Of a DNA stretch of 64,000 nucleotides, positions 49,028 to 60,860 are shown in pieces. A program made the translations under genes and the position numbers. The stretch's first letter is position 1, and every line of letters begins with the position of its first letter. This DNA is from Tetraselmis striata. Its lineage: Eukaryota > Chlorophyta > Chlorodendrophyceae > Chlorodendrales > Chlorodendraceae. The notes under the pieces were generated by a model, which had not been told where the DNA came from, did no database searches, and saw only the letters and a list, made by a program, of their open reading frames with translations. The stretch lies in the NCBI GenBank assembly GCA_006384855.1, contig VCJN01003285.1, positions 62,001 through 126,000 on the forward strand, in the 5' to 3' direction.

Positions 49028-54150
<5,123 letters not shown>

Positions 54151-55676
54151 TCACTGCACGTCGAAGCGGGCGAGCAGCTCCGGCGGCAGGAGGTCTCGCA
54201 TGACCTGGTTGCAGTACTCAATCGTCTCAGGGGTCAGCTCGCTGTAAAAGCCCTGTGCCTGGCCGCTGCGCACTTTGCGGTTGTCGCCCTTGGCCCTGTT
54301 GCGCCCAGGCAGCAGCCGCTGGTACTCCATCTTGCGCATGTTTTCGAAGTCGGTCTCGTCCACCACGCGCTTGACGAGCTCCTCCGACGCCTGCGCGCAT
54401 CGATACGGGCCAACGGTCAGCGCGCCGAGCGCAGGCGCAGTGTCGCGTGCAAACGTGCCGCCACGCGCAGCTCACCTTGAGGCCCATGTAGTCCAGCACG
54501 CGGCTGTACTCGCGCACGGGGTCCTCCTTCACATCGCGATACACGAGAATCATCGTCGGGTACAGCGGAGAGACATACCGCGTCTGGTACCAGTACCTGC
54601 CACGGTGGCGAGAGCAGGCACATGAGCAAACAAGCCAATTAATGCCGTCATCATCCATCCACGGGACCATGGCGAATCCGCGGGCGGAGCGACCCGGCCG
54701 CCGCACCAGAAGCCAAGCCACGTGACGTAGTGCTTGATGTATTTCCGGGTATCCTCCTGCAGCTTCTCATTGTCCGCGCCTTCGTGGTGGTAGTGCATCA
54801 GGCTGACCGTCGCGTCACGCGGGTCGCGCACCACGAGGATGTACTTCTTCAGCTGATCCGCCTCGTCCTCGATCGCCCACTCGGGGCCCCCAAAGTCTTC
54901 CATGGCATCATGGGCTCGCTGGTCCATGAAGACCTCATAGTCCGGCAGCCTGCGACGCAGGAGGCCAAGGGGCGGGTAAGGAAGCCGCACGAATAGCCGT
55001 GTGCGGATGGGCTCAAAGGACTTGCCGAGTAATGCAATATCCTTATCTGATACCAACACAATATTAATACACTATTTGATATTGTGTTGATATCAAACAT
55101 TCTATTGTTTATGTTGATATCAAATATATCATTTGATATCAGCATATATATCAAAGAGAATATCAAATGTACTATTTGATAATAAGCTGATATCAAATAT
55201 AATATTGAATCAACTCCTTAGGAAAGAGCGAAAAACTAAGATCAATGCGAATTTTCCAACTGTATCCCGGCTACATGGAGTATCACATCAATCAAACAAG
55301 TGACATGGGGTACATGATGAGCATCAGACAGGCAGTGCGACACCCATCGGCGTCTCTTTCCAGGCAGGAATAGCCGCCTAGCGCATTCGGTGATGGTCAC
55401 TGTCAGCACACATCCAGATAGGGCACTCACGCATGCCAGCTGGGCAGGCAGGCCTCGTAGTCCGTGTATTTCCGGTTCTGCAGGCATTCCTCCCAGGGCG
55501 CCAGCACCCCACGGTCGAAGTCATAGAAGGCGCCCACCTGCAAATGCACAGAGGCAGAAGTGGCAAGGGAGTTGGGGGGGGGGGGGGGGGGGGGGGGTTT
55601 AGCCAAACAAAGAGCGACCCCTGCCGCACAGCCAAACACGTGATGCGCCACCGCTGACACTGGGGCACCTCTGCGC

Positions 55677-55714
<38 letters not shown>

Positions 55715-58191
55715 GGGGGGGGGGGGGGGGGGCGCACCCGGGCATTATCCGGCGCATCAGGCGCCACGCTCATGGGGAAGTCGTGCTTCGTTTCGCACTT
55801 CCATTGCAGGGCAGTGCCGACGTTCTCGCCCTGGTTCTTCACAAACACCGCCACGGCGCCACGTGACGTCGTCTGCGCGTGGCAGTGGTAAACCGTGCTG
55901 TTGCTGCAGATCTCCTCCATCAGGCGGCCCACAAACACCTGAATAAAAGCAAACCGCATGTAAGGTGTTCCTTACCGTTCGTGCAGAAACGTCAAACCCT
56001 TGTGAGGAATCTTTTCGTACAAACGGTAAGTACACCCCCCATCACATCGGGCGGTTGCGCGGTCGTGCAGGCGCACCTCTGTCCAGGTCGTCCCCATCTT
56101 GGGCAGCCCCTTCATCAGCACGGTAGTGGAGCGTGGGTAGGGGCGCGGCATGTGGATGCGCTTCAAGAGGCATTCCTCCTTCAACGGCACCGCTTGATGC
56201 TGCAGCCACAGCAGGAAGGGTGCATGGGGCTGAGCTCACAGGCGCGGCGCCTCAAACAGGCGCGGAGATAGATGTCTGCGGCGGTCGAGCACCAAGGCAT
56301 GGCATGGCATGGCGGCTCACCCATTGGTCGGACAGGTAGAACTCCAAGAGGTCGTCATCGCAATGCTCGGTGAGGCCGTCCTCGACTGAAGGCAGCGCCC
56401 AAAGCCGCAACAAGGCGAACGGGCAGAGGGGGGGACGGGGGCTAGGTCAGCAGCACCCGGTTGGAAACGATGTGGATGTAGGCAGCCATATCCTGAGCAC
56501 TCGGAGGAGCATATAACGAGCCACGCAACGCCATGTGATGCTGGCGGGGCGGCCCCACCAGTGTAGATGTGGGCGGAGTGAATGGGCAGCGTGTGCACAT
56601 GGCGGAACCCCTTGAGCGAGCGGCTCAGGATGTCCATGCCGCGGAGCACTCTCCTGCAGTTCCGGCCAGGGCATACCAGTGCCGTTTTAGTCTGCAGGCC
56701 CACATACTAGAAGGTTGTTTGGAAGCGTCACGTCGATGACCGTGGTGCATTCTGATATTCCTACTCGCGTGGGTGTGTGGTTGGGAGGAAGGGTTACCAC
56801 TAGAGTGGTAACTAGTAAACACACATTGGGTTCGCGCATAATCATTGTTTTTGACACCCCCCCCCTCCCCCCCCCCAACACACACACACGCTCGGCCCCC
56901 GCCTCCCCTTTAGGGGGTGAAGAGGAACAAACTACAAAACAGTCGAACCGCATCAGAGTATGCCACGAAATTCCGGACACAGTGTGGCGAAACATTTCGA
57001 TACTTGGGGCACTGCCGACACAAATAAAGGCAGTACGTGTAGCATGCTCGAACCGAGGGAATGTGTGCAGAGGGAACGGCGCCTGCTGTACCGGTACGGG
57101 CGCCGCGGCGCACAGCAACAGTGGCCGGGATCGGGGGTTGGAGCACGCACCCGAAGACGCTGAACCTGCCGTCCAGTGCCGGCGCGTCCGCCAGCACGAA
57201 GGTGAACGCCGACATGGCGCTGTCGGGGTCGGTGCCGCGAACCATGGTCACGTACCCCGCCTTGTGGGAATAGCTGGTGAGCTCAAGCGGCACCGTCTTC
57301 TCTGCAGCCATCTGTGAAAGGCACCGCACGCGGCGATCAGGCAGTGCCGCCCTATATCTGAGCTCCCCCCCCCCCCCCCCCCGACGATGCGGTCTTGAAC
57401 AGCAACCACTGGCTATGCTGAGGACGCATTAGCCGTATGGGAACCCAAAACACACTCTCCCCATGTCTCTGGCATCATACCCAGAGCAACGTGCGGCGCA
57501 GGGGATAGATGGATGCGCGGCAGTTAGGTGTTTGGTGGAGGATTGGGCCAATTGCCCACGGCCGCCTAGGGCAAACTCACCCTCTGCACTGCGGACAGCG
57601 GCACCTCGCGCGAATCCAGTACCGGGTTGACCTTGGCGCCAAGGTTGTGGCTGATCCAGGTGATGGGCACGGTGTTGTAGGCGCCCAGCTCCACCAGCTC
57701 CAGCACGTGCGCCACTGTCTGCGGCGCCTCCTATCGGTGTGAACCCAGTGGCGGTTCAGCCATTGATGCGCAGACAGGGACGATCGCGACTACGAGGGGC
57801 GAAAATAAGAGGATGACTCCCCTTCCCTTCCGCATAGGGATGAATACTGGTAATCAAGGATGGGCATATCGAATATCACTTTACCGAAGCAAGATTGTTA
57901 TGCACTTTAGGCTGTGTGTGTGTATAGTGGGTGTAGGTATGTCTGACGCTGGAGGGGGAGGGGATTGACGGGCCGCATGCTGGCCGGCGCGGCAGCCGCG
58001 ATCCGTACCCGCTCGAAGAGCCCGATGTGTATGTCGCCATACTGGGTCTGAAACACTATCACGTTGCGACTCATCCCCGTCCGCAGGGTGACGGACGCCT
58101 GTGCGCCGACTGCGCCCGCTGCCAGGAGCAGCAGCACCAGCGTCAGCGCAGCGGTCACGCCCGCGTCGGCGTGGGAGGCTTGGCGAGCCAT
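54151..58191 (-). CDS. Cyclophilin-like / PAPS sulfotransferase fusion, 562 aa
   Basis: Eleven exons: 58009-58191, 57581-57730, 57151-57311, 56559-56653, 56321-56385, 56077-56199, 55738-55938, 55431-55537, 54707-54949, 54476-54596, 54151-54390; phases close to 563 codons. Residues 1-31 are a signal peptide or signal anchor (VTAALTLVLLLLAAGAVGA). Residues about 40-195 are cyclophilin-like: VIVFQTQYGDIHIGLFE, APQTVAHVLELVELGAYN, GYVTMVRGTDPDSAMSAF, DAPALDGRFSVFGRVLRGM. The usual catalytic Arg and FMxQGG segments are not recognisable, so isomerase activity is doubtful. From about 240 on it is a sulfotransferase: P-loop LMKGLPKMGTTW (Lys252), VRDPRDATVSL with Arg403 and Ser411 for the PAPS 3'-phosphate, and a C-terminal RSGQAQGF replacing the RKGxxGxW loop. 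With the leader this suggests a secretory-pathway enzyme. The acceptor substrate is unknown. The start at 58191 is chosen for the leader; an in-frame ATG lies at 58398. Confidence 0.85.
55030..55210. repeat. AT-rich cluster of TTTGATATCAAA-type palindromic half-sites in an intron
   Basis: GATATCAAA and TTTGATAT(C) recur about eight times within 180 bp, in both orientations, inside the intron 54950-55430 of the fusion gene. It could fold into several hairpins and contrasts sharply with the GC-rich exons, as a small AT-rich insertion would. Confidence 0.8.
55682..55712. repeat. (GGCTCA)n hexanucleotide microsatellite
   Basis: About five GGCTCA units beside a poly-G run, within the intron 55538-55737 of the fusion gene. 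Confidence 0.9.
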
Positions 58192-59017: not shown

Positions 59018-60219
59018 CTATAGACAAGGTTGGGGCAGCAAATAGGCCGTTAATATAGATGCAGGAGGATGCATAAAAGACCACGGCACATAGAGGAATA
59101 TGGCACATAGATGAATGTAATAAATGACAATGTTGTTTACATTGTCAACCCCATATATACCCGCCCGACTGTATGAGACAACATAGACGGGGGTGTCCAG
59201 CAACCGGTGGCTAAGCGAGCGCATGTCGGTTAAGAAATCGCGGTTGGTGGCCAGCGCTTTTAGCGCCTCGATGGTCTCCACATGTGACGCCGTGTCGGCC
59301 GACCGTACCGGCTCCTCCATCAGTTTTGACTTAAGGCCATAGTCGCGCTGCTTGCCGAGCCGCTCCGTCCTCAGCATACCGAAATAGCGAGAGCTCCAGG
59401 GCTTTTAGCAACGCGATGATGCTCGGTCAGTTGCCCTTATGGACCCAATTACCGTTGCGGACAGCGCGGTACTGAGGTACTCCAACGAGCTTCGGAACGT
59501 TTGGCCGATCTGCCTTATGTCCGAGTTTCTTCTTCCCAAAGAACTGATGCGCGAAACGTTTGTCCGGCGGGGCTGGCCTTTTGCAGAGCTGCTCCCATAC
59601 CCCATATACAATGCCAGTTTTGGAACGAGAGCTGGGAGGGAACAAGGCGCGATGGAGGGCGAAGACGAAGTCGAAGCCGACCGATTTAGCCATGTCCGCC
59701 GACCAACCGACGCCCTCTAACTCTCGCCAGTCTATCAGGGAGTTGTATTGCTGTTTTTTGGCAGACAGCGGGGCGCCGCTAGCTAGGCACTTTGTGAGTA
59801 GGGAGGCTGTGATGACTCTCAGGGCTCGGCGCGGCGCTGGCCATCATCAACGTCGGGAACGGGTTGTGCGGTGCTTGCCGAGACCCAGCGGGGCGCTGGC
59901 AATCGACCTTAATTGTAACCGTTCTCGTCTCAAGGAACGCCAGGGTGTCTGTGACTGCCTCTAGCAGGAGGAACGCTGTGCAGTCTCGCGAAAGCCCACG
60001 GTCGTGCCGGGTGCCGGCCAGGCACACCATCTTGATATCGGTGTAAGCAGGCAAAGGGTGGTAGTCGGGGGCGTGGGCCTCGATTGCCTCATTCAGCTGG
60101 TCCGTAGAGTTCTTGTCGCCCCACTCTTGAGCGCCTAGCTTTATCCATACGTTCCGCACTGCGGTCCTGCCGTCAACGGAAATGCTGACGCACGCCGCCA
60201 GTGACGCCAGGAGGTACAT
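59018..60219 (-). mobile_element. Degenerate element-like coding relic
   Basis: Three minus-strand pieces (59779-60219, 59427-59693, 59018-59377) carry protein-like sequence that appears to run on with frame breaks, e.g. TAFLLLEAVTDTLAFLETRTV, FDFVFALHRALFPPSSRSKTG and HVETIEALKALATNRDFL. No diagnostic motif lets me name the family. Decay, and position among repeats, suggest an element ORF. Confidence 0.35.
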
Positions 60220-60860
60220 ATATAGTGGTGCTGCCTGGTGTGGGCGGCGGGTGCTGGTGGTGGTGGGATATAGGGGGGAGGGATATCGGATATATGGAAG
60301 GCAATGAATGCATGGGCATATGAGATGATGGTGGCTATCCTACGTAGCTCCCCGGCTAGGCCCGGCGCAAGGCTCGCAGGCGATAAGGCAGCCCGGAGGG
60401 TATCGGTAAAATTAACCTGTCTGAAACCCGAAACAGATTGTACGGGTCGCACTAGGACAGTTGACTAGTTCTTGAAACCCCATAAACATAGCTTAGAGGA
60501 TGCATTGCGGCGGTTTGTCTCCCCATCAGCCGCTACTGTACTGTGCCGGTGTCGAGTGCGCCGGCGCTGTCGCCTACGACATCGGGGGCATCGACGAGTA
60601 CTGTTCAAAGTACTATTAGACTATAAGTTTTTTTTCCGGAAACGGAAGATTTCCCCCCCCCCCTTTTTCCGAGCAAAATCGCCACCAAAGACAACGTATA
60701 AAATCTTCCAGGCCCAAGCCAGTGAGTGATTCATAATCCTTACCGTTTACTATTTTTTTTGCGTCATCTCCAGCGCGCAAACCCTGCGCAGAATTATTGA
60801 GCGCTAGCTTTGACCTGTAGTCGATAGTGCGCTACGCACTTCAGTACGAGGACATAGGCC

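Follow-up and report, generated by a model that had tools for sequence, protein, structure and literature searches.

Does the green alga Tetraselmis striata join a cyclophilin to a sulfotransferase in one gene, or have two neighbouring genes been run together by a convenient choice of splice sites? The question is raised by a locus at positions 54151-58191 on the minus strand of a 64,000-nucleotide stretch of the T. striata genome (hereafter the window; C2651:62001-126000 of a 224-Mb, 2903-contig assembly), which has a mean GC content of about 59%. A sequence-only reading of this stretch had proposed a single gene in which a leader-bearing cyclophilin-like domain precedes a sulfotransferase. 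Comparison with other loci of the same assembly indicates that the locus does represent one gene and that this gene belongs to a small family within the genome. We consider it probable that this family combines a leader, a CYP23-derived and inactive cyclophilin acting as an accessory module, and a SULT-type sulfotransferase of the secretory pathway.

The join between the two domains

We rebuilt the exons of the locus and obtained an open frame from an ATG at 58191 to a TGA at 54151 across 11 exons, all with GT donors and AG acceptors and in consistent phases, which agrees with the earlier claim of eleven exons joined in phase without a stop. The FYLSDQW exon (56321-56385) splices in phase into the exon with the P-loop (56077-56199), as had been described. 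The product is 562 amino acids long when exon 2 starts at the acceptor at 57730; this site (TAG) is more probably the one used than 57727 (GAG), and both keep the frame. In the product, a hydrophobic leader is followed by the cyclophilin domain, a linker exon and the sulfotransferase. Pfam assigns residues 45-176 to PF00160 (Pro_isomerase; E 3.8e-21, 76.4 bits against a cut-off of 21.7) and residues 396-550 to PF00685 (Sulfotransfer_1; E 7.1e-22). The solved structures nearest to the first half are cyclophilins (best 5ex2, E 4.4e-8), and those nearest to the second half are aryl/phenol sulfotransferases, with 1cjm leading (E 1.2e-12, a match that covers residues 174-286 of the 344-residue sulfotransferase query) and SULT1A entries following.

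Consistent phase turned out to be weak proof of the fusion when taken alone, since, of 337 arbitrary GT/AG combinations running from exon 4 through a middle exon to the P-loop exon, 38 were open in the right frame. Direct joins of exon 4 to exon 6 were open in 2/17 cases. On the basis of this splice enumeration we rejected phase consistency as proof of the join and used evidence from paralogues instead. A search of the genome with the sulfotransferase half led to contigs C1598 and C1979, on which the loci L017 and L033, respectively, carry upstream of their P-loop exon a linker exon, exons at the cyclophilin position and a hydrophobic leader, in the same order as in the window. The L017 model has 12 exons and 548 amino acids; that of L033 has 13 exons and 591 amino acids. 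PF00685 scores 78.5, 81 and 49.7 bits in the three fusions (curated cut-off 22), and PF00160 is above its cut-off in L017 as well (35.9 bits against 21.7).

The gene structures agree in detail. Exons 1 to 7 start in phases 0, 0, 0, 2, 1, 0 and 0 in the window gene, L017 and L033, and the first six introns, including the one at the junction of the two domains, likewise agree in order and phase between these genes. L017 has 6 of the 10 window introns at an identical alignment column and phase, and for L033 three are exact, four lie within two columns and five within six. When introns were placed at random and scored with a 6-column tolerance, the observed sharing was matched in 0/20,000 trials for L017 and 3/20,000 for L033. 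This repetition of layout and intron phases across three paralogues bears out the earlier proposal of a single gene; the joined gene is secure because its exon layout recurs in both paralogues.

The obvious alternative would be that a CYP23-like cyclophilin gene lies next to a separate sulfotransferase gene and that the two were misjoined through the choice of splice sites. It gains from the fact that in-frame joins are not rare in the enumeration above, and from internal methionines: exon 6 of the window gene has two Mets ahead of the Met inside the P-loop motif, and intron 5 of L033 has an in-frame Met past its last stop, so the Met test alone leaves an internal start possible in both. In L017, however, the sole Met of exon 6 sits inside the P-loop motif, and there, as in the window gene, no in-frame Met occurs from the last in-frame stop of intron 5 up to exon 6. 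Moreover, the exon 5 frame of L017 and L033 stays free of stops when read through intron 5. The gap between the two exons measures just 121 bp in the window (intron 5, 56200..56320, with stops in the frames of both exon 5 and exon 6), 113 bp in L017 and 109 bp in L033, and contains no TATA, TGTAA or AATAAA in any of the three. With the joined layout recurring on three separate contigs, we regard a misjoining as highly improbable.

A stand-alone cyclophilin gene and the origin of the fusion

Searching the genome with the cyclophilin half of the window gene gave two results outside its own locus: a gene on contig C22, and on C1860 a weak match. The C22 gene model comprises five exons and 257 amino acids, and its product matches PF00160 only (E 2e-30). 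We label this gene CYP23-like for its presumed likeness to Arabidopsis CYP23-1 (AT1G26940), a name that occurs in PMC9727951; orthology to plant CYP23 is our assumption.

Introns 2-4 of the C22 gene have phases 0, 2 and 1, the same as introns 2-4 of the fusions in the same order. Introns 2 and 3 match those of the window gene exactly in column and phase, and intron 4 has the same phase as in the window, lies 7 columns off and coincides with that of L017. The first intron of the C22 gene is unlike the first intron of the fusions. Its last exon, which reads GGATCEEQLADM...RCLPG followed by a stop, occupies the place of the fusions' linker exon, and two cysteines lie after the leader, in the tail, x24 apart. 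Their counterparts in the fusions flank the junction intron: C205-C228 in the window protein (x22), and C212-C236 and C211-C235 in the other two (both x23). The first part of L033 also matches the C22 gene (39%, E 0.003).

These likenesses make it likely that the cyclophilin half came from a C22-like gene. We infer that one copy of the CYP23-like gene, after duplication, would have been fused, within or just past its last exon, to sulfotransferase exons. In alignment-based scans, in which records from this genome or a very near one may be left out, none of 281 pattern matches among viral contigs and none of 96 among contigs of prokaryote genomes encodes a relative of the fusion; a viral or bacterial source is thus without support.

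Exon layout, neighbourhood and further family pieces

Exon 1 (58009..58191; all features of the gene are on the minus strand) holds the ATG, the hydrophobic leader (AALTLVLLLLAAGAV) and the beginning of the cyclophilin domain. The domain continues through exon 2 (57581..57730, with 57727 as the alternative acceptor) and exon 3 (57151..57311), both of whose flanking introns are common to the stand-alone CYP23-like gene, and ends in exon 4 (56559..56653). Exon 5 (56321..56385) encodes the linker EDGLTEHCDDDLLEFYLSDQW, takes the place that the final exon has in the CYP23-like gene, and has counterparts on C1598 and C1979. On the other side of the junction intron, exon 6 (56077..56199) contributes the cysteine C228 and the P-loop LMKGLPKMGTTW for 3'-phosphoadenosine 5'-phosphosulfate (PAPS), and exon 7 (55738..55938) the candidate catalytic His (TKHDFP). 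Exon 8 (55431..55537) includes the stretch WEECLQNRKYTDYEACLPSW, whose counterpart is full in L033 and partial in L017, and exon 9 (54707..54949) carries the motif KKYILVVRDPRDATVS, which we take to bind the 3'-phosphate. The sulfotransferase continues in exon 10 (54476..54596) and finishes in exon 11 (54151..54390) with its C-terminus, a KVRSG motif and the stop TGA. At 54013..54017, 3' of the stop, lies the sole TGTAA on the minus strand between 58300 and 53701, a possible polyadenylation signal of green-algal type.

Intron 8 contains an AT-rich tract (window ~55040-55240) with repeated GATATCAAAT-like units, the rest of the gene being GC-rich. Downstream of the gene, at 51327-52638 on the minus strand, there are matches to TIP49 (RuvB-like ATPase, PF06068) in two frames, so this neighbour is probably split by an intron. 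Upstream, at 59021-60339 on the minus strand, we found three open frames with no Pfam match at E 0.01.

Further pieces of the family occur elsewhere in the genome. L034 (C1128:15500-20255) carries, at ~4217-2800 on the minus strand and at the end of a short contig, a sulfotransferase fragment of the fusion family that is nearest to L033 (E 1.2e-12); the match contains stops, some of them maybe intronic, and anything upstream of it is off the contig. At 2973-3247 of L047 (C1921:100500-110400), 275 bp share 97.8% identity with the exon-3 region of L033, and nothing further of the L033 gene matches within the 9.9 kb of this locus; we read this piece as a recent partial duplication. The fusion family may exceed the members found. 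Two other loci, L001 (C2448) and L002 (C2399), have PF00685 frames with near-equal scores that are apparently intronless, one of them with an in-frame TAG; both are related to the fusion family only distantly.

State of the two halves, proposed function and known relatives

In all three fusions the P-loop LPK[MT]GTTWTE, a K-H pair and VxRDPRDAxxS are invariant; we presume the roles of the 5'-phosphosulfate-binding P-loop and of the 3'-phosphate motif. The window protein also has six cysteines (205, 228, 270, 278, 356 and 543) that are invariant in the three, as might be expected of a predicted lumenal protein. The cyclophilin half has changed more. Among the canonical catalytic positions of cyclophilins is the Arg of FHR, and the residues of the window protein aligned to R, F, M, Q, A-N, the second F, W and H are all replaced. 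The Arg of FHR is Arg in the C22 gene and Trp in 3/3 fusions (W86 in the window protein), although the Trp in L033 hinges on gap placement. Identity between the window protein and L017 is 147/310 in the sulfotransferase versus 60/172 in the cyclophilin part; the corresponding values are 127/333 versus 28/164 for the window protein and L033, and 112/309 versus 32/168 for L017 and L033.

In the leaders of the fusions, hydropathy over 15 residues peaks at 2.1-2.8, and after them no stretch of 19 residues rises above 1.3, which suits a secreted, lumenal or leader-held protein. We propose that the leader would carry the protein into the lumen of the endoplasmic reticulum or Golgi, and that the sulfotransferase would there use PAPS to sulfate a secreted acceptor. 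The likeliest acceptor for a green alga would be a cell-cover polysaccharide or glycoprotein, given that PMC10762512 describes green-algal covers that include scales made in the Golgi and, for certain groups, sulfated polysaccharides. The cyclophilin, presumably no longer a proline isomerase, would serve an accessory function, binding the acceptor or lending the enzyme stability. A disulfide linking the two cysteines on either side of the junction might keep it in place. The binding or folding role that had been suggested for this part is a reasonable one to predict; nothing points specifically to a peptide substrate.

Several observations weigh against this reading of an inactive accessory cyclophilin on a secretory sulfotransferase. 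L033 has no Pfam match to PF00160, and its region at the cyclophilin position can be aligned for just 41 residues with a profile built from the other three (hhalign probability 58%), so we rejected the notion that its first half is a clear cyclophilin by Pfam. Contigs C1598 and C1979 were not recovered by the cyclophilin-half query, their cyclophilin parts being far diverged. The intron sharing between the C22 and window genes, taken alone, is moderately beyond chance (610/20,000 random placements reach 2 shared), and intron 4, although it agrees in order and phase among the three fusions, is offset by 7-8 columns in a poorly aligned stretch. The L017 model is uncertain around exon 8, where a stretch may be missing. 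The cyclophilin part of the window protein shares 60/172 identical residues with L017 and 60/176 with the C22 gene, and so is equally close to both. The cyclophilin sequences alone therefore do not show one fusion origin; a common origin is supported by the shared first intron, linker, junction intron and sulfotransferase halves. C228, counted above as a tail cysteine, might be part of the sulfotransferase. Whereas the usual SULT catalytic motif is K-[ST]-H, the candidate in the three fusions is [TSL]-K-H, with the His kept and the Lys shifted by one place. The catalytic loss noted in the sequence-only reading holds throughout the window protein, but some of it came before the fusion: the C22 gene keeps R, F and Q and differs at M, A-N, W and H like the window protein. 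Finally, the leader is called from hydropathy only, with which the earlier claim of a secretory leader is consistent.

A real fusion could also retain its cyclophilin half as a passive relic, a leader and spacer in functionless decay. Such a relic would account for a cyclophilin part that is far less conserved than the sulfotransferase part and barely recognisable in L033. Against it, the frame and exons of this half are maintained in three diverged genes, the window copy still reaches E 4e-21 against PF00160, and the Trp and cysteines are kept; we consider a relic possible, if unlikely. That the cyclophilin half still works as a proline isomerase or chaperone, folding the acceptor or the sulfotransferase, seems to us very unlikely, since the window protein has other residues at the canonical catalytic positions and none of the three fusions keeps the Arg. 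Some cyclophilins with unusual active sites do retain binding or chaperone roles, and the departures of the C22 gene at several canonical positions suggest that these are not required in every member of the group.

Beyond the accessory-module reading, which we prefer, there is a more far-reaching one that we hold to be rather unlikely. The protein would be a self-targeting sulfotransferase, whose dead cyclophilin reads proline motifs and brings in proline-rich secreted proteins or glycoproteins, such that peptide context directs sulfation. The Trp that replaces the catalytic Arg in the three fusions would help to form the new binding site. If true, such a proline-motif reader would represent a new class of self-targeting sulfotransferase.

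Within one genome, a stand-alone cyclophilin relative, three fusions at different stages of cyclophilin decay and one sulfotransferase fragment of this family coexist, so the way in which a domain fusion arose and was put to new use can be read directly. The fusions are also candidates for little-known enzymes that sulfate algal cell covers. The sequence-only reading had stated that no cyclophilin-sulfotransferase protein was known; we found none described as such in the titles and abstract openings of the literature searched, and one transcript is a possible case. In Table 2 of PMC7554865, Caulerpa lentillifera g3147.t1 is placed under PF00685 with a peptidyl-prolyl cis-trans isomerase as its best BLASTp match, and the authors excluded it from their later analyses as different in function. 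This g3147.t1 possibly has the same architecture as the fusions or is a gene-model artefact. Genes of this kind can be taken for annotation errors and lost from surveys, and g3147.t1 is possibly an example.

The T. striata fusions are a new combination of two known families, in an architecture that we did not find described, and not a new kind of system. With the CYP23-type secretory cyclophilin encoded on C22 they have in common a leader, the cyclophilin domain, the order and phase of three introns and the cysteine tail, but the C22 gene stops after this tail and keeps the catalytic Arg, whereas the fusions have Trp at that position and continue into the sulfotransferase. With SULT-type sulfotransferases (PF00685) they share the P-loop PKxGTTW, RDPRDxxxS and a C-terminal KVRxG, which we take to correspond to the RKG motif of SULT enzymes. 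Unlike these enzymes, they carry a leader and a cyclophilin N-terminally, together with invariant cysteines, and the candidate catalytic His311 of the window protein lies 92 residues from Arg403 of RDPRD, a distance that is about 20 residues in SULT enzymes.

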